Part shown: in pieces, positions 792-34,187 of the stretch
Layout of the letters: the number at the start of each line of letters is the position of its first letter
Position numbering within the stretch: position 1 is the first letter of the stretch
Translations under genes and position numbers: made by a program
NCBI RefSeq assembly: GCF_024435355.1
Contig: NZ_JAMJWG010000007.1
Span: 124,001 to 188,000, forward strand
Source: Streptomyces odontomachi
Lineage (GTDB): Bacteria; Actinomycetota; Actinomycetes; Streptomycetales; Streptomycetaceae
Length of the DNA stretch: 64,000 bases
Reading direction: 5' to 3'
Notes under the pieces: model-generated
Seen by the model: only the letters and a program-made list of their open reading frames with translations
Databases searched by the model: none
Told to the model about the DNA's origin: nothing

Positions 792-2036
792 ATGACGTGG
801 GCCGGCCAGAAGCCCCTGCTCTTGGTCATCACCAACGGGCTTCAGGACTACCGTGAGTACCTGCTGCGCTCCTTGTGCACGCGCTACCGCGTGCACCTGA
901 TCAACGACACGGAACCCAGTTGGGAAAGACCCTATCTGGACGGTTTCACCCTGGTGCCGGACACCGGTGCGGACGCGGTGCTGGCGGCGGCCCGCAAGAT
1001 CGCCGCCGAGGAGTCGGTGAGCGGGGTGATGAGCTGGCATGAGGAGCACATCGTGCAGGCGGCGCTGGTCGCCGAGGAGTTGGGGTTGCCCGGGACGCCT
1101 CCGGATGCGGTGCGGCGCTGCCGTGACAAGTTCGCCACGCGTACCGCCCTGGCCGCCGAGGGGATCGCCCAGCCGGGGTTCGTGGTCGTCGGGAATCTGG
1201 ACGAGGCGCGTGCGGCGGCGGACAAGCTGGGCTTCCCCGTGGTGATCAAGCCCCGTGCGGCCGGGGGCAGTCAGGGTGTGGTCCTGGTGGCGGACGCGGA
1301 GGAGCTGGCGGCGCACTTCGTCACGACCCGTGACGTGCCGGTCCCGCACACCCCGGTGTTCGACCAGGGAGTGCTGGTCGAGGAGTACGTCGAGGGGCCC
1401 GAGATCAGCGTGGACTCCGTGGTGCACCGCGGTCGGGTGACCCCGCTGTTCGTGGGCCGCAAAGAAGTCGGCTTCCCCCCGTACTTCGAGGAGACCGGGC
1501 ACATCGTCGACGGGGCCGACCCGTTGCTGGCCGACCCGGACTTCCGGCGGATGATGCAGGCGGTGCACACGGCGCTGGGCTGCACCGACGGCTGGACCCA
1601 CACCGAGCTGAAACTGACGGCGCGGGGCCCCAGGTTGATCGAGGTCAACGGCCGGCTCGGGGGCGACCTCATTCCCTACCTCGGGTTGCGCGCCACCGGC
1701 GTCGATCCCGGTCTGGCCACCGCGGACGTGGCCTGCGGTACCGAGCCGGTGACCGAGGCCACCAAGCAGGCGGTGGCGGGGGTGCGCTTCTGCTATCCGC
1801 CGCACGACGACGCGCTGATCGAGGCCGTCGACTTCGACCGCGCGGGCCTTCCCGACGAGATCGATCTCGCGGTGCCCCTGGTGGCCCCGGGCGACGTGGT
1901 CTCCCCACCGCGACAGGGCCTCATCGACGGCCGGGTGGCGCTCGCCACCGCGGTGGCCCCGTCCGTGGACACCTGCCGCACGGCACTCGACCGGGCACAG
2001 GCAGCGCTACGGCTACGGGTCGGCCCGCGCCGGTAG
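792..2036 (+). CDS. ATP-grasp domain ligase
   Basis: Complete 414-residue ATP-grasp enzyme. Residues 1-110 form the pre-ATP-grasp region; the nucleotide-binding lysine is in VVIKPRAAGGSQG (K153, flexible Gly loop 157-162), the hinge is LVEEYVEGPE (about 196-204), and the metal ligands are in THTELKL (E272) and IEVNGR (E284, N286). Proteins of this size and motif set include L-amino acid ligases and carnosine synthase-like enzymes, so peptide or amide bond formation is the best inference. GGAAGGA lies about 7 bases before the ATG. It follows its truncated paralogue (stop 614) after 177 bp in the same direction, probably one operon. Substrate unknown. Confidence 0.88.
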   Translation: MTWAGQKPLLLVITNGLQDYREYLLRSLCTRYRVHLINDTEPSWERPYLDGFTLVPDTGADAVLAAARKIAAEESVSGVMSWHEEHIVQAALVAEELGLPGTPPDAVRRCRDKFATRTALAAEGIAQPGFVVVGNLDEARAAADKLGFPVVIKPRAAGGSQGVVLVADAEELAAHFVTTRDVPVPHTPVFDQGVLVEEYVEGPEISVDSVVHRGRVTPLFVGRKEVGFPPYFEETGHIVDGADPLLADPDFRRMMQAVHTALGCTDGWTHTELKLTARGPRLIEVNGRLGGDLIPYLGLRATGVDPGLATADVACGTEPVTEATKQAVAGVRFCYPPHDDALIEAVDFDRAGLPDEIDLAVPLVAPGDVVSPPRQGLIDGRVALATAVAPSVDTCRTALDRAQAALRLRVGPRR

Positions 2037-27985: not shown

Positions 27986-28065
27986 CGGCCATCACGGGGG
28001 GCACCAGGCCGCGGGGTACGAGGGGCCGGGTGTCCCCTCAGGTGCACGCCCGCGGGCGGCCCTTT

Positions 28066-29847
28066 TCACGACACGTAACCACGAGATTGAAGCTCGAAGA
28101 GCTCGAAGTACTTCTGCCGCCGTGCCATGAGGTCCTCGTGGGTGCCGACTTCGACCACGGAACCCCGATCGACGACGACTATCCTGTCGGCGAGTTGCGC
28201 GGTGGAGAGTCGATGGGTGACAAAACAGGTGACTCCACCACTGCGATAGGCCACGTCTTTCGCCGCCGACAGATATGCCTCGGCAACCTGCTCCTCCGCC
28301 AGTGCATCCAGCGAATGTCCCGGCTCGTCCAGGACCAGCAGCAGTGGTTTCGGGCGCATCAGGGAGCGCGCGAGTCCGACGGACTGCCACTGACCGCCAG
28401 ACAGTGCGCGGCCCTGTTCGTGGCGGAGCCCGAGCAGGGTGTCGAGCCCGTGCGGCAGGTCGTCGACGACCTTGCCCGAAGAGGCTCGGCGGAAGGCGCT
28501 GAGTACGGCCGCCCGGTTGTCGATGTCGGGCAGGTGGCCGACTCCCACGCTTTCCTGCACGGAGAACTCCAGGCGCGCGAAGTCCTGAAACAGCGTGGAG
28601 ACCCTTGCCCGCCAGGACTCGGGAGTCTGCTCTCCCAGATCGACGTCGTCCACGCGGACGCGGCCTCTCGTCGGCCGGTAAAGGCCAGAGATGATCTTCA
28701 CCAGCGTGCTCTTGCCGGCCCCGTTCTCTCCGACGATCGCCACCGTGCTGCCGGCAGGAAGGTGCAGATTCACCCCACTCACAGCGGGAGTGGTCATGCC
28801 GCGATACGTGTACTCGACGTCTTCGAGACTGATTCCGGTGGATATCCTCTCGATCGGCAGGGCACCGTCGCTGCCACGTTCCTTCAGATCCGCGAAGTTC
28901 AGGTGCCGAAGAATGTCGAATCCGTTTGCGACGGAGTGCAGGGACGCAAAGAGATCGAGTCCCGTCACCACCTGCGCGCTCACTCTGGTGATCAGCGTGA
29001 CCAGGAGGACCACATCCCCGACCGTCACGCTGCCGTTCTTCACCATGTAGATGACGAAGGCCACTGAAGGCGCATAGGCGGCGGCGAAGGCGCCCTGCCC
29101 TACCGCTCGCCAGGCTGCGTGCTTCCACTGCGCCTTCAGCAGGATGTCCTTCGCCCTGGTCTGAAGCGAATGGTGGCGGGAGAGCAGCAGTTCCTCGACC
29201 CCGAGGATCCGGAGCTCCGGTAGCGTGTCCGGACTGGTGGCGATGGATCTCAACCGGGCCAGCTGGCGTACCACCGAGGCCGCCTCACGCCGTCCCCTTT
29301 CGAGGACCAGCTCTGCCCGGTGTCCCAACACGACGGGGACGGCGGAGGCCAGCGGCAGCGCGGCGAGCCAGATCTGTAGCCGCGCCACGACGACGCTGGT
29401 GATCACGAGCTGCACGACGATCGCAAGGATCTTGAAGACGGCGGAGACGCTCTCCCGCATGCGAACGATGTCTTGCTTCAGAATGGCGATCGAGTCAAGG
29501 AACTCCGGGGAGTCAAGCCTTTCGAGACTCACTTCCGAGATGGACGATATCAGTTCGGATGTCAGCGTCTTCTCGTTGATCTCCCCCAACTCGAAGTAGT
29601 AGAGATGCGCGAAGTGTGCCAGGTACAGCTCGCAGGTGAGCGCGATGCCGGTGGCGACGGACCAGCGCAGACTCGTCATCTCGTCGGCCGCGAGCGCCGC
29701 GTTCACGGCTTCACGAGCTGCTACCGCAACCAGCGGAGTCGCGGCAAACCCCAGTAATATGAGAACTGCACCCAGCGTGAGTTGTCTTCGCCCGTTGCGC
29801 CATGAAATCCGCAGGAGAAAGATCACGGCACCGACCGTGTCCTTCAT
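28066..29847 (-). CDS. ABC half-exporter (membrane + ATPase) 1
   Basis: 593 residues: six-span membrane domain (1-335) fused to an ATPase with Walker A GENGAGKST (373-381), signature LSGGQW (482-487), Walker B LLLVLDEP (502-509, E508) and H-loop THRLS (H545). No peptidase head. Codon 31 is TTA (29755-29757) and ATA, TTT and similar AT-ending codons are frequent, unlike the neighbours. Its ATG overlaps the stop of the next half-exporter by 4 bp (29844-29847), so the two probably form a heterodimer. Third gene of the glycosyltransferase-exporter operon. Substrate unknown. Confidence 0.92.
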   Translation of the reverse strand: MKDTVGAVIFLLRISWRNGRRQLTLGAVLILLGFAATPLVAVAAREAVNAALAADEMTSLRWSVATGIALTCELYLAHFAHLYYFELGEINEKTLTSELISSISEVSLERLDSPEFLDSIAILKQDIVRMRESVSAVFKILAIVVQLVITSVVVARLQIWLAALPLASAVPVVLGHRAELVLERGRREAASVVRQLARLRSIATSPDTLPELRILGVEELLLSRHHSLQTRAKDILLKAQWKHAAWRAVGQGAFAAAYAPSVAFVIYMVKNGSVTVGDVVLLVTLITRVSAQVVTGLDLFASLHSVANGFDILRHLNFADLKERGSDGALPIERISTGISLEDVEYTYRGMTTPAVSGVNLHLPAGSTVAIVGENGAGKSTLVKIISGLYRPTRGRVRVDDVDLGEQTPESWRARVSTLFQDFARLEFSVQESVGVGHLPDIDNRAAVLSAFRRASSGKVVDDLPHGLDTLLGLRHEQGRALSGGQWQSVGLARSLMRPKPLLLVLDEPGHSLDALAEEQVAEAYLSAAKDVAYRSGGVTCFVTHRLSTAQLADRIVVVDRGSVVEVGTHEDLMARRQKYFELFELQSRGYVS

Positions 29848-31661
29848 CGTTGCTCCCCTCCGGTCTCACTGCACTGATACCTTTCCGCCTGCGCGTGGAA
29901 CATTTTTGCGTAGAGCCCGCCCAGTCGCATGAGCTCTTCGTGACTGCCGCGTTCCGTGATGAAACCGCCGTCCAGCACCGCGATCTGGTCCGCGCGGCGG
30001 ACGGTTGAGAACCTGTGCGATATCACGATGCTGGTGGTACCTTTCGTCAGCTCAAGGAACCGATCGTAGAAATCGGCTTCGCCGCGGGCGTCCAGCTGGG
30101 CCGTGGGTTCGTCGAGTACGAGGACCTTCCTCCCGTTCTTGATCGCAAAAAGGGAACGCGCCAGCGCGATGCGTTGCCACTGGCCACCCGACACATCGAC
30201 GCCGCCCTCGGTGTTGCCGTCCAGGGGGGTGTCGAGACCGGCCGGGAGTGCGCCGACGAGAGGCCCGAGGCCGGCCAGGCCGATGGCTTCGAGAACGTCT
30301 GCGTCATCGGCGTTGTGGGTGGCGCTTCCTATGGTGACGTTCTCTCTGAGGGAGAACGGGAAGCGGGAGAAGTTCTGAAACGCCACCGCGAACTGGTTCT
30401 GCCAGGTCAGGATATCCGCACCGGGCGGGTCCACCGGGACGAACCGGATGGAACCGGACGTCGGTTGGTACAGGCCCGTGATTATTTTGGTGAGCGTTGT
30501 CTTCCCTGCGCCGTTGACGCCGACGACAGCAAGGGACGTCCCTGCCGGGATGTCGAGGTTCACCGACTTCAGGACGTCGACACCGTTGCCGGTGTAGCTG
30601 AATCCGACATTCTCGAGCGTCAGCCGATGCCATGTGTCCGGAACTGCTGGTTGCTTACCGTTCGTTGTCTCGGGTCCCTGGAACCTGCGTTTCGCACGTG
30701 TGAGGGACTCCCAGGCGGAGAACCCGTACACGAGCTTGGTGTCGGACTCCGGGAAAATGGTCCCGAACCGGCCGCAGAGTACGACGGCCTGTAGTGCGAT
30801 GACCGCCCTGCTCGGGTCCATGGACGGCTGGTTGGTGAACAGGACCAAAGAGCCGATCAGTCCTGCTCCGACGAAGATCGAGTATGCCGCAAACGGGCGT
30901 CCGTATATCTTGCTCCGTCCTGCCCACTGCGTGGAGTTGAATCTGTCGGCGTGCGCTGCGAACTTCCTCTCGATCCACGGTCCGAGGCGGAATATTCGTA
31001 TCTCCTTGGCTGTGCCGGACTCCATTCCCAGGTCTCGGAGGTATGCGATCGCGCGCCGTGCCCCACGCAGGCTGCTCACGATCTTCCCCCACTTCCGGAA
31101 GGCGTTCGCGTGGCCCGTGCGTGCAACCAGGGCCGCGGTGACGACGACCGCAGCCGTTCCCGGCCCCACCACGGTGGACAGGATCGCCGCGGCGCCGCCG
31201 AGCTGCGTGTACCGTGCGATCAGGAACAATGCTCCTGCGAAGGCGTCTCCGGGAGTGTTCGTCATGGCTTCGAGGGGCTCGCAGACGGCGTGGAGATCAT
31301 CGGCGAGATCGGAGCCTTCCAGGTCGCTCAGCGAGGGCGCACCCAAGGTCAGCCTCAACACCTCCGCGGAACAGTGGGCGTTGATCCGGTGGGTGACAGC
31401 GGCGGCTACCACCAGCTGGCTCGAGGAGAGCACTTGCTGAGCCGTGAACGCCCCCACTGCGATGGCGAGATGAAGATTCGGACTCTGGCCTGCGTGGATG
31501 TCCCCCACCGCACGGCCGATACCCACCAGGAACACTATCGGCAGCGCTCCGGCGACGACATTGACGGTGAGGGCGCATAACAGCAGCACCCGGGGGACGG
31601 CTCGTGTCATCTCCCGCAGGTCCTGGAGACGCCTGAGCCGATGCGCCGCAGTTGAGATCAT
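29844..31661 (-). CDS. ABC half-exporter (membrane + ATPase) 2
   Basis: 605 residues: membrane domain, then ATPase with Walker A GVNGAGKTT (381-389), signature SGGQW (491-495), Walker B VLVLDEP (513-520; E518) and ISHRFS (H549). Codon 28 is TTA (31578-31580), so translation in a Streptomyces host would need the bldA tRNA. Stop overlaps the start of the partner gene; the glycosyltransferase stop lies 15 bp upstream of the ATG. Both half-exporters keep all catalytic residues, so both ATP sites could be active. The similarity is to antibiotic or lipid exporters in general; no specific substrate can be read. Confidence 0.92.
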   Translation of the reverse strand: MISTAAHRLRRLQDLREMTRAVPRVLLLCALTVNVVAGALPIVFLVGIGRAVGDIHAGQSPNLHLAIAVGAFTAQQVLSSSQLVVAAAVTHRINAHCSAEVLRLTLGAPSLSDLEGSDLADDLHAVCEPLEAMTNTPGDAFAGALFLIARYTQLGGAAAILSTVVGPGTAAVVVTAALVARTGHANAFRKWGKIVSSLRGARRAIAYLRDLGMESGTAKEIRIFRLGPWIERKFAAHADRFNSTQWAGRSKIYGRPFAAYSIFVGAGLIGSLVLFTNQPSMDPSRAVIALQAVVLCGRFGTIFPESDTKLVYGFSAWESLTRAKRRFQGPETTNGKQPAVPDTWHRLTLENVGFSYTGNGVDVLKSVNLDIPAGTSLAVVGVNGAGKTTLTKIITGLYQPTSGSIRFVPVDPPGADILTWQNQFAVAFQNFSRFPFSLRENVTIGSATHNADDADVLEAIGLAGLGPLVGALPAGLDTPLDGNTEGGVDVSGGQWQRIALARSLFAIKNGRKVLVLDEPTAQLDARGEADFYDRFLELTKGTTSIVISHRFSTVRRADQIAVLDGGFITERGSHEELMRLGGLYAKMFHAQAERYQCSETGGEQR

Positions 31662-31676
31662 CTGAGGTTCCTCTGA

Positions 31677-32531
31677 TCAGGAATCGACGTGGACGACTTC
31701 CTTGCATTCCACATGGTCTCGGACCGTGGCAATGGCGTGGTCCATGATCTCGCGGTCGCCCTGGCTGACATGGGACAGGGTTATGCGCGCAACGGCCTCC
31801 GGGGTGGCGGTGCGCACCATCGAGAGTTCGCCGATTCTGGCGACCATGTCCCGGTAGATGGCGGCCAGCCGTAGCCGCTCCTGCGACTCGTGACCGGTAC
31901 CGCGGTCGCGGGTAAGCGAGCCGGGGCGCTTCATTCGGTGATACAGGGGAACGTCTATGTAGCCGAAATCGTTCAGCATCCACAGCATGCCTGTGAGGTA
32001 GCCGTCGAAGGCGAACGGATAGCCGCCGTAGAATCCTCCGTACTTCTTCATCTTTTCCGAGTTGTACAGGCCGTGAAATCGAAACCGGTCAAGTGCTGAC
32101 CTGTGGCCGGCGGGTAGTGTGAGCCGGTCGCTGAGGGATTCGCGCGCTTCACCGGACTCGGAATGCACGATCTGCGAGGAAGCCGCAACCGCGATATCGC
32201 GTAACTCCATCTCGTTCAGTAGTAACTCGGCACGCTTGGGGTCACTCCAGTCGTCCGAGTCCTGAATCAGCAGGTATCTGGCGTCTGTTGCCGCATGCAG
32301 CACCAGGTTGTGCACGTAGAACGGCCCGCGACTGTGCGACAGCTGGATGCGGTGCAGTCGTGGATCGTCGATCCCCGCAAGGCTCTCCCATGCGGCGGAA
32401 GGATCTCCGCCGTCCACGACCACGAACACTTCGACGTCCTTTATCGACTGCTCGAGGCAGGACGTGACGGCACGCAGAAGATACTGATGCGTACCTTTGT
32501 ATGGAATGCTTACCGATATCTTGGGCGACAT
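31677..32531 (-). CDS. Family 2 glycosyltransferase
   Basis: 284 residues, GT-A fold: ISVSIPYKGTHQYLLRAV at the N terminus, nucleotide-binding VVVDGGD (37-43), and the metal-binding QDSDDW (D91-D94). No membrane segments, so it acts in the cytosol on a nucleotide sugar. Two TTA codons occur (codons 103 and 110; 32223-32225 and 32202-32204), and the first codons (AGC ATT CCA TAC AAA) are unusually AT-rich for this genome. ATG 32531 has GGAG 9 bases upstream. First gene of an operon with two ABC half-exporters, so it probably glycosylates the cargo they export. No precursor peptide or acceptor gene is seen nearby. Confidence 0.88.
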   Translation of the reverse strand: MSPKISVSIPYKGTHQYLLRAVTSCLEQSIKDVEVFVVVDGGDPSAAWESLAGIDDPRLHRIQLSHSRGPFYVHNLVLHAATDARYLLIQDSDDWSDPKRAELLLNEMELRDIAVAASSQIVHSESGEARESLSDRLTLPAGHRSALDRFRFHGLYNSEKMKKYGGFYGGYPFAFDGYLTGMLWMLNDFGYIDVPLYHRMKRPGSLTRDRGTGHESQERLRLAAIYRDMVARIGELSMVRTATPEAVARITLSHVSQGDREIMDHAIATVRDHVECKEVVHVDS

Positions 32532-32720
32532 GAATTGCATCTCCAGGTTCCGCTTTTGTCCGTACCCAGGGGCGAGCGGGGCGAGATCACGAGGAGCGGC
32601 AGGACGGCAATGGTCGGATCCTCCGATACTCGACATCCCGAACGAGTAAACGCATTACAGATCGAGCGCAGGAAACGATGCCGCGGTGCGGACCGCTATG
32701 TCCTGCACCGAGATGCCTGT

Positions 32721-32746
32721 GGTGACACGAGGTGACTATGGTGACA
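32721..32746 (-). promoter_or_regulatory. phased direct repeats before the glycosyltransferase operon
   Basis: On the minus strand TGTCACC, AGTCACC and TGTCACC follow one another at 9-10 bp spacing. Repeated heptamers on one helix face resemble binding sites of SARP-type activators (which use about 11 bp). They lie 190-215 bp before the glycosyltransferase start in the 387-bp gene-free stretch 32532-32918. Confidence 0.4.
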
Positions 32747-32906
32747 CGGGCAGCTTCGGGGAAGTCAAGTACGAGCACCCCGCCGGGGCCCAGCGATCCG
32801 GCCGCGCCTCGAAGCCCGCTGCCAGGCCCCCTCGCCCCGTCCGGGCACACAGTGACGGAGCAGCAGTGACGACACCTGACGGCGCCTGCCGAGAGCTACC
32901 GCCACC

Positions 32907-32912
32907 TACACT
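32907..32912 (+). promoter_or_regulatory. -10 box of a leaderless promoter
   Basis: TACACT, 6 bases before GTG 32919. Confidence 0.55.
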
Positions 32913-32918
32913 CGCCGC

Positions 32919-33143
32919 GTGAACACTTTCAAGTGCACCCAGTGCGACACCGTAGGTCTGACGGATGGCTTCATCGAGGACGCCGGCGAGCACTCACGCG
33001 GCTACGCCCGATGGATCGAAGGCGCCCTGGAGCGGGGAGTCTTCGGCGGCGCCAAGCGCATGGGCCGCCCCCGCTGGCAGATCGAGGCCTACCGCTGCCC
33101 CAAGTGCGGCCACCTCGAACTCTTCGCCAGCAACCAGGTCTAG
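32919..33143 (+). CDS. small zinc-ribbon protein
   Basis: 74 residues with two CxxC knuckles (C6/C9 and C60/C63) separated by a helical middle of 50 residues (ARWIEGALERGVFGG). This is a zinc-ribbon arrangement seen in small actinobacterial proteins of unknown function. GTG 32919 lacks a ribosome site; TACACT stands 6 bases upstream, as in other leaderless genes of this window. It is divergent from the glycosyltransferase operon. Confidence 0.78.
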   Translation: MNTFKCTQCDTVGLTDGFIEDAGEHSRGYARWIEGALERGVFGGAKRMGRPRWQIEAYRCPKCGHLELFASNQV

Positions 33144-33247
33144 CGCTGGCCCTGATACCGCGGTCCGGCAGGACAACGGCCGCCCCCAGGCAACGGTCCC
33201 GCCCGCGCCCTTGCGCGGGGCGTGGACGGGACCGGAGGTCTGGACGG

Positions 33248-33514
33248 TCAGAGGGACGGCAGCGTGGGCAGGGCAGGGAAGCCGGGGATGAGGCGGCCAG
33301 GGACCTGTTCGACGGACTGGATGGCGCCGAAGATCGGAATGCCCAGCAGGGCGGTGGTCCAGGTGTTGTCGAGGCCGCTGGTGTCCGGTTCGTCGACCAC
33401 GACCACGTCGCTTCCGGACGCGTCGCCGGCGAGGGCCTGGACCGGGGCGGCCAAACCGGTCGCGACGATCAGGGCGGTGGTGGCGACGCCGCGTAGGACT
33501 GTCCTGCGCATCAT
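33248..33514 (-). CDS. small secreted protein, hypothetical
   Basis: 88 residues. A signal peptide (MMRRTVLRGVATTALIVATG, cleavage near AQALAG about residue 30) leaves a mature peptide of about 58 residues with no Cys, ending in a Pro/Leu-rich tail. Size recalls chaplins and rodlins but the sequence does not match either as I know them. ATG 33514 has GAAAGG 9 bases upstream. No partner gene is evident. Confidence 0.65.
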   Translation of the reverse strand: MMRRTVLRGVATTALIVATGLAAPVQALAGDASGSDVVVVDEPDTSGLDNTWTTALLGIPIFGAIQSVEQVPGRLIPGFPALPTLPSL

Positions 33515-34187
33515 GAGGGGTGACCTTTCGTCGGTGGGTGTCTGATACGGGGGGACCGGGGGCGGGGCTGACGCGGCGTGCGATCGGGCTCGTGGCCCGT
33601 GCCGGCCGGGTCACCGGTCCTGCCGGCGTCCGCGTCGTCCGTGGACCCCATGGGCTCCATCGGCATCACGTTGACCTGCGCGCAGGCGTACAGCAGCGCG
33701 TCGCCTTCGTCGGGGCTCCGGTGCCGGGCCGCGCTCCACCGGGCGATGCCGGCCGCGGAGGGGGTCTCGCCGTGGAAGCCGTGGGCGGGGTGATGGCGTA
33801 GGACGCCGAGGTGGTGTCGCGCGGGTTGAAGCGGAGCGGGAGGAACGAGGTGAGCGCCGAGTTCGCCACCGGCGCGTGCACCAGCCACGCTGCGAGATAC
33901 AGGCCGGCACCGAAGCTCGGCCGGGTGGCCTGCCCCTCGCTGACGGTGTACAGCCGGCTCGCGGCGTCGGCCCAGCCGGACGCCGTACTGCCGGGCCGTG
34001 CCGGATGCGGGGCTTTTCGGGGTGCGGGGTGCGGGGAGCGTGCCGCGTGACATCTGGATGTGGCGCGGCGTGAATTCCGCGGCGTGCCGCGCAGACTGTC
34101 CGTGCATGGGTGTGATGCGGCTTTTGCGTACTCTGGCCGAGCCGTAACGATGGCCGAAGCCCGGTCGCACGACAGGAGCACCACCCC
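33515..34187. other. 673-bp gene-free stretch with possible gene remnant
   Basis: No intact gene is convincing. On the minus strand a plausible protein-like stretch (about 34000 down to 33800: SRLYTVSEGQATRPSFGAG..) continues after an apparent frame change near 33780 as RSPDEGDALLYACAQV (about 33690), the latter reminiscent of phage terminase or similar large-subunit ends. It could be a decayed gene; the match is from memory and weak. Confidence 0.3.

Follow-up and report, generated by a model that had tools for sequence, protein, structure and literature searches.

Three adjacent minus-strand genes of Streptomyces odontomachi, within the window (the whole 64-kb stretch of DNA analysed here), encode a GT2 family glycosyltransferase and two ABC half-exporters, ABC1 and ABC2 (Table 1). 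The reading that we prefer, with a probability of roughly 0.45, is that they are transcribed together as one lineage-specific module, which adds a sugar to a small product and exports it. The GT2, acting in the cytosol, would use a nucleotide-sugar as donor to glycosylate an acceptor, and ABC1 and ABC2 would form a heterodimeric type IV exporter that carries the glycosylated product out of the cell. The three genes were probably acquired together, as an AT-richer piece, and sit at the meeting point of two chromosome blocks. The module may be the tailoring-and-export end of a natural-product pathway, separated from core genes elsewhere, or a protection module of the glycosylate-and-pump-out kind. 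A stray piece of a natural-product pathway is the probable form, because related pumps are often found near sugar-attaching enzymes in such clusters (see below).

Table 1. Positions of the operon genes and nearby features in the window
Feature	Positions	Strand	Description
GT2 glycosyltransferase, 284 aa	31677..32531	-	PF00535, E 1e-13; frame open from 32636; TTA codons 103 and 110
ABC1 half-exporter (TMD + NBD), 605 aa	29844..31661	-	PF00005; TTA codon 28
ABC2 half-exporter (TMD + NBD), 593 aa	28066..29847	-	PF00005; TTA codon 31
Orphan 88-aa protein, signal-peptide-like start (by eye)	33248..33514	-	Upstream of GT2, same strand; GC3 0.89 (host-like)
Stretch with no DNA match in relatives	27990..34124		Compared with 22 loci carrying one or other flank gene; operon and two small genes inside

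Organization of the operon and its surroundings

The GT2 and ABC1 genes are separated by 15 bp and the ABC1 and ABC2 genes overlap by 4 bp (from the ORF coordinates), with an RBS-like sequence located 5' of each of the three starts. The first-pass annotation had given these coordinates and spacings correctly, and its gene identities are borne out by Pfam, by the DxDD motif of the GT2 and by the NBD motifs of the half-exporters. Scans for promoter and terminator consensus sequences gave counts no higher than in shuffled sequence, and Rfam and tRNA searches across the window gave no match. The PADLOC matches of the ABC proteins are read as generic ATPase matches.

The genes flanking the operon lie apart in relatives, and the operon is located at the junction of two chromosome blocks. 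For the comparison with the 22 relatives' loci (Table 1), about 1.5 kb was retained on either side of the flank gene. No convincing repeats marking an insertion were observed. By Pfam, the neighbours include an aminotransferase, a DUF402 protein and an Lrp protein; by eye, they include LysE-type, zinc-ribbon, permease-like (without a Pfam match) and Nudix proteins. Neither an acceptor nor a sugar-nucleotide gene nor a biosynthetic core is found beside the operon, and the nearest clusters are about 26 kb to the left and about 35 kb to the right.

Membership in two clusters was considered and rejected. The cluster with ACP, ATP-grasp, GMC and TauD genes (C87:87.7-126.0 kb) is 26 kb off and has its own MFS-like genes (by eye). 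The GMC, TauD and ATP-grasp relatives beside the GT-ABC-ABC triple of NBC_00209 show only 32-39% identity to the genes of this cluster. For the SapB (ram) cluster, the RamC-type synthetase and RamS are about 35 kb away and have their own exporter pair.

The exporter pair

The Walker A, signature, Walker B and H-loop motifs are complete in both ABC1 and ABC2. Several known heterodimeric exporters have one degenerate site. In comparison, both halves of the window pair retain the glutamate after Walker B. In Pfam, ABC1 has no ABC_membrane match, and the PF00664 match of ABC2 is under its cut-off. The model of ABC1 (pLDDT 75, pTM 0.58) is predicted to have the type IV exporter fold, with MsbA (E 8.7e-22) as the best Foldseek match, TmrAB at E 3.7e-21, and TM-scores of about 0.4-0.6 among the matches listed. 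The sequence identity to TmrAB, TM287/288, BmrCD and also MsbA, which share this fold, is 20-23%. TmrAB, TM287/288 and BmrCD are heterodimeric type IV exporters, and the window likewise has two different, adjacent halves.

The profiles of ABC1 and ABC2 are distinct from each other (920 vs 280 bits, and 903 vs 256 bits). ABC1 precedes ABC2 in all 16 loci compared (including the window and five of the six Cellulomonas loci), with the 4-bp overlap in 14 of them. The same order is found in 22/22 pairs of a larger tree, which covers four of the six Cellulomonas loci and four of eight weaker relatives (L122, L123, L125 and L127 omitted); NBC_00441 was omitted from both trees. The ABC1-ABC2 pair is a definable, putatively heterodimeric family in Streptomyces and Cellulomonas. 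Its family, gene pairing and motifs are observed directly, and we infer that ABC1 and ABC2 dimerise with each other. The window pair is located, with a long branch, in a clade of seven rows (100/100) that also contains SID9727, G772 and four Cellulomonas rows.

The SapB cluster of this contig likewise has two adjacent half-exporters, of the RamA/RamB type, and contains TTA. However, these exporters score only 123 and 107 bits with the ABC1 profile, compared to 920 for the window ABC1, and they are linked to a RamC-type synthetase, whereas the window pair is linked to a GT.

Related loci and the association with glycosyltransferases

Of the 15 Streptomyces loci, 10 have a GT somewhere in the sequence retrieved, corresponding to five of nine cluster types once near-duplicates are merged. 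It is located directly upstream of ABC1 in seven loci (three of the nine merged types), namely the window, cyaneofuscatus, McG3, NBC_01010, G171, NBC_00209 and NBC_00441. The near-duplicates are G171/NBC_00209/NBC_00441, cyaneofuscatus/McG3/NBC_01010, BB1-1-1/G721 and A0958/col6, as judged by branch lengths (by annotation for NBC_00441). The search near the pairs used two GT profiles (NBC_00441 not included) and Pfam on chosen proteins. With the two profiles, the surroundings of the pair gave no GT in A0958, col6, G045 (a locus of 10.9 kb that ends just past ABC1) or six Cellulomonas loci; with the profiles and Pfam on chosen proteins, none was found in G739 or in G772, where a GH3 glycosidase gene overlaps ABC1. 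The GT link, counted here in the related loci, is tentative, and the merging of near-duplicates weakens it further; our confidence in the preferred reading is slightly lower for that reason.

The near-duplicate triples of G171, NBC_00209 and NBC_00441 share the GT-ABC1-ABC2 order, the direct coupling and the exporter family with the window. Their GT, as tested on G171, is a GT2 with a Glyco_transf_7C domain and is not alignable with the window GT2. They adjoin epoxide hydrolase, P450, VOC and TauD genes (annotation of the two plasmids). Unlike the window genes, those of the G171 and NBC_00209 triples have a GC3 of 0.93-0.97 and no TTA. In S. cyaneofuscatus NRRL B-2570, McG3 and S. anulatus NBC_01010, the same exporter pair likewise has a GT immediately 5' of it. 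GC3 is lower here (0.77-0.88), with one TTA each in three of the nine genes. The GT is fused to a condensation domain, and the clusters hold PseB-type dehydratase and AMP-binding genes. The exporter of SID9727 (G116), a clade-mate of the window pair, has 45% identity to it. The second gene downstream is a GT2/7C of another clade than the window's, and ThiG-like and HAD genes are located upstream, unlike at the window pair.

The GTs beside the other exporter pairs belong to other clades (best blastp match to the window GT2, E 0.004), so the GT-exporter pairing is analogous and not inherited. GT-ABC1-ABC2 triples, which the first-pass annotation had suggested looking for, occur in the related loci, but with GTs of other clades, and no second case of the exact combination with this GT2 clade is found among the loci compared. 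What recurs is the exporter family near GTs of unrelated clades. If this pairing holds against controls, genome searches with the exporter could lead to glycosylated natural products that are as yet uncharacterised, and the pump would be a simple system for asking whether glycosylated cargo is selected.

The first-pass annotation had suggested a system not tied to a known cluster. This is true of the window copy, which has no adjacent core gene, but not of its kin, as 12 of the 15 related Streptomyces loci resemble natural-product clusters (partly by eye). The observation named as contrary to this suggestion, homologous operons always inside a known cluster with a known product, is not made here either, as the clusters of the kin are recognised by their appearance and not by their product.

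These loci also bear on a role in detoxification or resistance, in which the GT2 would add a sugar to a toxic small molecule, making it inactive, and the pump would expel it. We consider this role rather unlikely. Glycosylation plus ABC export is an established self-protection for macrolides, and the operon has a GT and an exporter without biosynthesis genes, with no biosynthetic neighbours by eye in the six Cellulomonas loci either. However, the known macrolide-inactivating GTs are GT1 and not GT2 enzymes, and the biosynthetic appearance of most of the Streptomyces loci also argues against it.

The GT2 glycosyltransferase

The match of the GT2 to PF00535 has a score of 52 bits, compared to the Pfam cut-off of 23.3. 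The DxDD motif starts at residue 91, and D91, D93, D94 and D176 are invariant among the aligned relatives. The metal-binding DxD and the acidic residue of the acceptor half, as expected for a GT-A glycosyltransferase, are both kept. The absence of a hydrophobic segment suggests that the enzyme is cytosolic.

Relatives of this GT2 are scarce, with two, both distant, in 294 other genomes of the genus. No match was obtained in a scan of genome contigs with the GT2 alone, in a tblastn search of plasmids and phages, in a PHROGs search, or with a viral relative against phages. In the tree, where the placement of the GT2 is uncertain and the branches are long, its sister (93/89) is a GT2 in G023. Its cluster encodes a small peptide of the double-glycine type (by eye), an ABC transporter with a C39 peptidase, a carrier protein, two AMP-binding enzymes and a condensation domain. 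The next kin include actinophage GT2s whose genes directly follow the one for the major capsid protein, namely that of prophage L012 (profile match) and those of viral contigs L099 and L098 (by sequence start or gene order).

The peptide cluster of G023 and the capsid-adjacent phage enzymes are consistent with a ribosomal glycopeptide route, in which the GT2 would glycosylate a peptide or protein from elsewhere, or the 88-aa protein, and the pair would secrete the glycopeptide. The 88-aa protein is also rare (one weak match in 50 other genomes) and is a weak candidate for the GT2 acceptor. However, its GC3 is host-like, and given its signal-peptide-like start the pump is not needed for its secretion. 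A leader-motif and RBS filter of C87:140-172 kb, which covered double-glycine-type leaders only, left a single implausible ORF, and the genome has nothing that convincingly resembles the G023 peptide (best E 0.32). Moreover, Pfam finds no C39 domain in either half-exporter, and the uncertain tree placement of the GT2 further reduces the weight of its kin. The route is unlikely. A cassette with a peptide or protein glycosyltransferase, bldA-gated glycopeptide secretion and a precursor encoded in trans is more doubtful still. The GT2 of such a cassette would be related to the GTs found beside phage capsid genes and to that of a hybrid cluster with a double-glycine peptide and a condensation domain.

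The model of the GT2 matches GT-A folds, with heparosan synthase, SpsA and TarP among the polysaccharide and teichoic-acid GTs found. Together with exporters such as MsbA among the matches of ABC1 and with TuaG/WcaA profile matches of the GT2, though far under their cut-offs, this could indicate a cell-surface polysaccharide or teichoic-type glycan module, in which the GT2 would build an envelope glycan and the ABC pair would flip a glycolipid. Such a module is very improbable. The model matches are at the fold level only (14-23% identity), the match to PglK, a lipid-linked-oligosaccharide flippase, is far under its cut-off, and no second GT, polymerase or lipid-carrier sugar transferase is recognised among the neighbours (mostly by eye).

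Codon usage and TTA codons

The AT-richer codon usage claimed for the three genes is confirmed by GC3 computed per gene, with values of 0.747 for GT2, 0.782 for ABC1 and 0.786 for ABC2, compared to 0.82-0.94 in nine flanking genes. The contig background (252 other genes of 150 aa or more in 361,942 bp, from a home-made caller that trims some starts) has a mean GC3 of 0.921 (sd 0.033), with two genes below 0.79 and none below 0.75. The operon looks acquired because its flanking genes lie apart in relatives. The low GC3 and the rarity of the GT2 are counted as well, and the operon was probably acquired as an AT-richer, lineage-specific piece. A degenerate acquired fragment with little or no expression would share the low GC3, the rarity, the lack of partner genes and the position at the block junction, but is hard to credit with three intact frames, the expected motifs, RBS-like sites and the 4-bp overlap all kept.

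The positions of the TTA codons had been given exactly (Table 1). Compared to the contig average, the four codons are in excess (0.38-0.56 expected; Poisson P 0.0006-0.003). Given the composition of the operon itself, 3.17 are expected (11 TTA+TTG leucine codons multiplied by an A/(A+G) of 0.288 at fourfold sites), with P(>=4)=0.40. The low GC3 and the TTA codons are therefore one property and not two independent signals.

A bldA-type tRNA-Leu(TAA) gene is present in the genome, and since all three genes contain TTA, their translation probably depends on this tRNA. This dependence is a consequence of codon composition and does not have to be under selection. The two exporter genes have their TTA codons early (codon 28 of 605 and codon 31 of 593). 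TTA codons in streptomycetes are described as biased towards gene starts (PMC4255298), and an S. ghanaensis protein with two TTA codons is reported to be undetected in a bldA mutant (PMC3814723). A survey of 213 species describes most TTA codons as poorly conserved and discusses acquired genes as one source (PMC10327506). The developmental control that had been proposed is thus possible, as the tRNA gene and the early codons would allow it, but the number of TTA codons follows composition and they are not conserved in homologues. The result is a reminder that a group of TTA codons in an acquired, AT-richer operon does not necessarily reflect selected developmental control.

Among the homologous Streptomyces GT and ABC genes, 22 of 26 have no TTA. 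No alignment column has TTA in common among 14 ABC1 rows or 14 ABC2 rows. The 14-row alignment of ABC1 has four TTA codons, three of them confined to 9 columns of the first membrane helix.

Organization and composition of the operon

We judge the operon to be an acquired orphan, one variant of an arrangement that recurs: a glycosyltransferase (GT) with an exporter pair. It encodes a glycosyltransferase, GT2, and two ABC half-exporters, ABC1 and ABC2. The three reading frames are intact, and the proteins belong to these families and carry their motifs. The genes are closely coupled, with a gap of 15 bp between GT2 and ABC1 and an overlap of 4 bp between ABC1 and ABC2, and each start is preceded by an RBS-like sequence. 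The open frame of GT2 reaches back to 32636; the start adopted here, at 32531, has GGAG ahead of it and agrees with the relatives.

Genes of the operon, with third-position GC content (GC3) and TTA codons
Gene	Coordinates	Strand	Type	GC3	TTA codons
GT2	32531-31677	minus	ORF	0.747	103, 110
ABC1	31661-29844	minus	ORF	0.782	28
ABC2	29847-28066	minus	ORF	0.786	31

All four TTA codons lie exactly where the first-pass annotation had placed them, and the AT-richer codon use that it described is confirmed. The mean GC3 of 252 other genes of the 362-kb contig (at least 150 aa; called with a home-made gene caller, which trimmed some starts) is 0.921 (sd 0.033), and only two of them fall below 0.79. Outside the operon, TTA accounts for 21 of 9,679 leucine codons, or 35 of 10,731 if the longest frames are used, so that 0.38-0.56 TTA codons are expected in the operon, compared to the four seen (P 0.0006-0.003). 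The other genes called within the window contain none. A control for composition, which takes A/(A+G) from the fourfold sites of the operon itself, predicts 3.17 TTA among the 11 leucine codons that are TTA or TTG (P(>=4)=0.40). Judged by these counts, the operon owes its TTA codons to its composition.

Possible control by bldA

The first-pass annotation had also placed the operon under developmental control. A bldA-type tRNA-Leu(TAA) gene is present in the genome (10.57 Mb, 119 contigs), and the TTA codons of ABC1 and ABC2 are early in the genes, which counts in favor of gating. A bias of streptomycete TTA codons towards gene starts has been described (PMC4255298). In S. ghanaensis lacking bldA, a two-TTA protein went undetected, and AdpA, with one TTA, was still produced, 15-fold more weakly (PMC3814723). 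Widespread genes or clusters with TTA number 29, and the 27 of them confined to Streptomycineae were taken as adaptive (PMC4255298).

On the other hand, most S. coelicolor TTA genes could not be found in the small set of other genomes available at the time (PMC4255298). Across 213 species, conservation of TTA codons is mostly weak, and gene acquisition is considered among their sources (PMC10327506). The TTA count agrees with the operon's composition, and no alignment column with TTA in common is found among 14 ABC1 and 14 ABC2 rows. TTA is present in 4 of the 26 Streptomyces GT/ABC homologue genes examined. Gating by bldA is mechanistically plausible for this operon and need not be selected. 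In the first membrane helix of ABC1, three of the four TTA codons of the family (codon 28 in the window, 43 in locus L029 and 44 in locus L034) are at most nine alignment columns apart, never at the same site.

The exporter pair and its neighbors

The exporter family is rare in the samples searched. The membrane domain of ABC1 has matches in 4 of 294 other genomes of the genus at 1e-15, and a profile scan finds 14 of 391, seven of them strong. When 84,980 species representatives are scanned with two short patterns, a method of low sensitivity, 11 loci appear, five in Streptomyces and six in Cellulomonas; plasmid records supply NBC_00209, NBC_00441, NBC_01010 and BB1-1-1. ABC1 precedes ABC2 in all pairs examined, with the 4-bp overlap in 14 of 16, and profiles clearly separate the two types. 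In the tree, the window pair is on a long branch in a clade (100/100) with SID9727, genome G772 and Cellulomonas.

The neighbors were surveyed in 15 Streptomyces loci of the strong family, including the window. A GT is directly upstream of ABC1 in seven (the window, S. cyaneofuscatus, McG3, NBC_01010, G171, NBC_00209 and NBC_00441) and elsewhere in the stretch in SID9727 (second gene downstream), BB1-1-1 and G721, for a total of 10/15. None was found near the pair in A0958, col6, G045, G739 (which has a DUF6271 protein of unknown function nearby) and G772, or, with two GT profiles, in six Cellulomonas loci. Merging of near-duplicates (G171/NBC_00209/NBC_00441, cyaneofuscatus/McG3/NBC_01010, BB1-1-1/G721 and A0958/col6) leaves nine types, five with a GT and three with it directly upstream. 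Twelve of the 15 loci (6/9 types) look like natural-product clusters, a judgment that draws on annotation and on Pfam for selected genes and was partly made by eye. The two GT profiles match in 8 of 14 strong Streptomyces loci (NBC_00441 left out) and in one of eight weaker-family exporter loci, a second of which (L123) has GT-like genes by eye; this comparison is rough and no statistical claim is made, since the eight loci were not chosen as controls and lack Pfam annotation.

The window GT2 hardly aligns, or does not align at all, with the GTs next to the other pairs (best E 0.004). The combination recurs across loci; the GT itself does not. The GT2-ABC-ABC triple of the window was not found elsewhere in the genomes, plasmids and loci searched.

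Two neighborhoods have other features. In G772 (L119 6147-12195), a GH3 glycosidase gene overlaps ABC1 by 4 bp. At SID9727 (L015, 11.7-18.5 kb) and locus L021 (13571-16446), the exporter pair is accompanied by genes for a ThiG-like protein, a HAD hydrolase, a GT2/7C and a 519-aa protein without a Pfam match, possibly a thiosugar-type cluster.

Relatives and possible acceptor of GT2

With the GT2 sequence alone as query, matches are found in 2 of 294 other genomes of the genus at 1e-20 (33-37% identity); across the phylum, 2 of 395 other genomes match at 1e-15. A profile search finds 11 of 391 in the genus at 1e-20, mostly weak; four of these matches (29-32% identity) adjoin a carbamoyltransferase-like gene and more GT-like genes, by eye. 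GT2 has no hydrophobic segment. Its model (pLDDT 73) matches GT-A enzymes, among them heparosan synthase 2, SpsA, chondroitin polymerase and TarP; the identities are 14-20%, and these matches settle the fold, not the acceptor.

In the GT2 tree, where branches are long, the sister is the GT2 of genome G023 (93/89), and actinophage GT2s are among the next nearest. The G023 cluster (L011 1661-9859) is an unusual mixture of RiPP and NRPS parts. Besides the GT2 it contains a C39-peptidase ABC transporter, a stand-alone condensation domain, a carrier protein, two AMP-binding enzymes and a 33-residue peptide whose leader looks by eye to be of the double-glycine type. The actinophage GT2 genes, in one prophage (L012) and two viral contigs (L098 and L099), directly follow the capsid gene, recognized as major head protein by profile in L012, by a near-identical start in L099 and by gene order only in L098. 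This position suggests capsid glycosylation modules. PMC11256854 cites reports of capsid glycosylation in mycobacteriophages Che8 and Rita; in the phage that this paper itself describes, the GT genes are near the 3' end of the genome and do not adjoin the capsid gene.

As relatives of GT2 are located in a peptide cluster and beside phage capsid genes, the window enzyme may have a peptide or protein as its acceptor. No member of the exporter family was found in nine loci of GT2 relatives, where the matches score like generic ABC proteins.

Proposed function

The best explanation is a co-transcribed, lineage-specific module that glycosylates and exports a small product, to which we give a probability of about 0.45. 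GT2, ABC1 and ABC2 would be transcribed together, GT2 would carry out the glycosyl transfer, and ABC1 and ABC2 would form a heterodimer that exports the glycoside. The operon may be gated by bldA and was probably acquired. The observation in the first-pass annotation is borne out, and its interpretation finds support in part. Among the matches listed in literature searches on bldA or TTA with GT and ABC transporter, and on glycocins in Streptomyces, the module is undescribed, as judged by titles and starts of abstracts. A search on self-protection by glycosylation and export gave no matches. Among the 8 of 66 matches listed for heterodimeric exporters with GT and self-resistance the module is likewise undescribed, which leaves absence from print unproven.

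Chromosomal setting

The operon probably sits at the junction of two chromosome blocks, because window 27,990-34,124 has no DNA match in 22 loci holding one or the other flank gene (compared together with some 1.5 kb to either side of that gene) and the flank genes are apart in relatives. The left one (PatB-like aminotransferase) is found in 25 of 60 other genomes and the right one (permease-like) in 18. Ten genomes have both. In two the genes share a contig but are millions of bases apart: G009 has them at 9.08 and 1.64 Mb, and G013 has them at 8.23 and 0.42 Mb. The other eight have them on separate contigs, which is consistent with their being apart but not conclusive. No convincing flanking repeats were found around the operon, and no transposase was noticed by eye among its neighbors.

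An orphan gene nearby (33248-33514, minus strand) encodes a protein of 88 aa that begins like a signal peptide and has one weak match in 50 other genomes. The window itself spans positions 124001-188000 of contig C87. To the left of the operon, a TTA-bearing cluster occupies 87.7-126.0 kb of the contig (including window 792-2036), with genes for SARP-like regulators, carrier proteins, and AMP-binding, asparagine-synthase-like, GMC, TauD and PhyH-like proteins, several of these names being based on sequence starts alone. The cluster reaches into the left end of the window, where its last genes encode two ATP-grasp ligases that are near-duplicates. About 3-10 kb to the right of the window, there is a SapB-type (ram) cluster (contig positions 191378-198249). 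Its RamC-like synthetase has one TTA, and it also encodes two half-exporters and, judged by eye, a 49-aa peptide resembling RamS.
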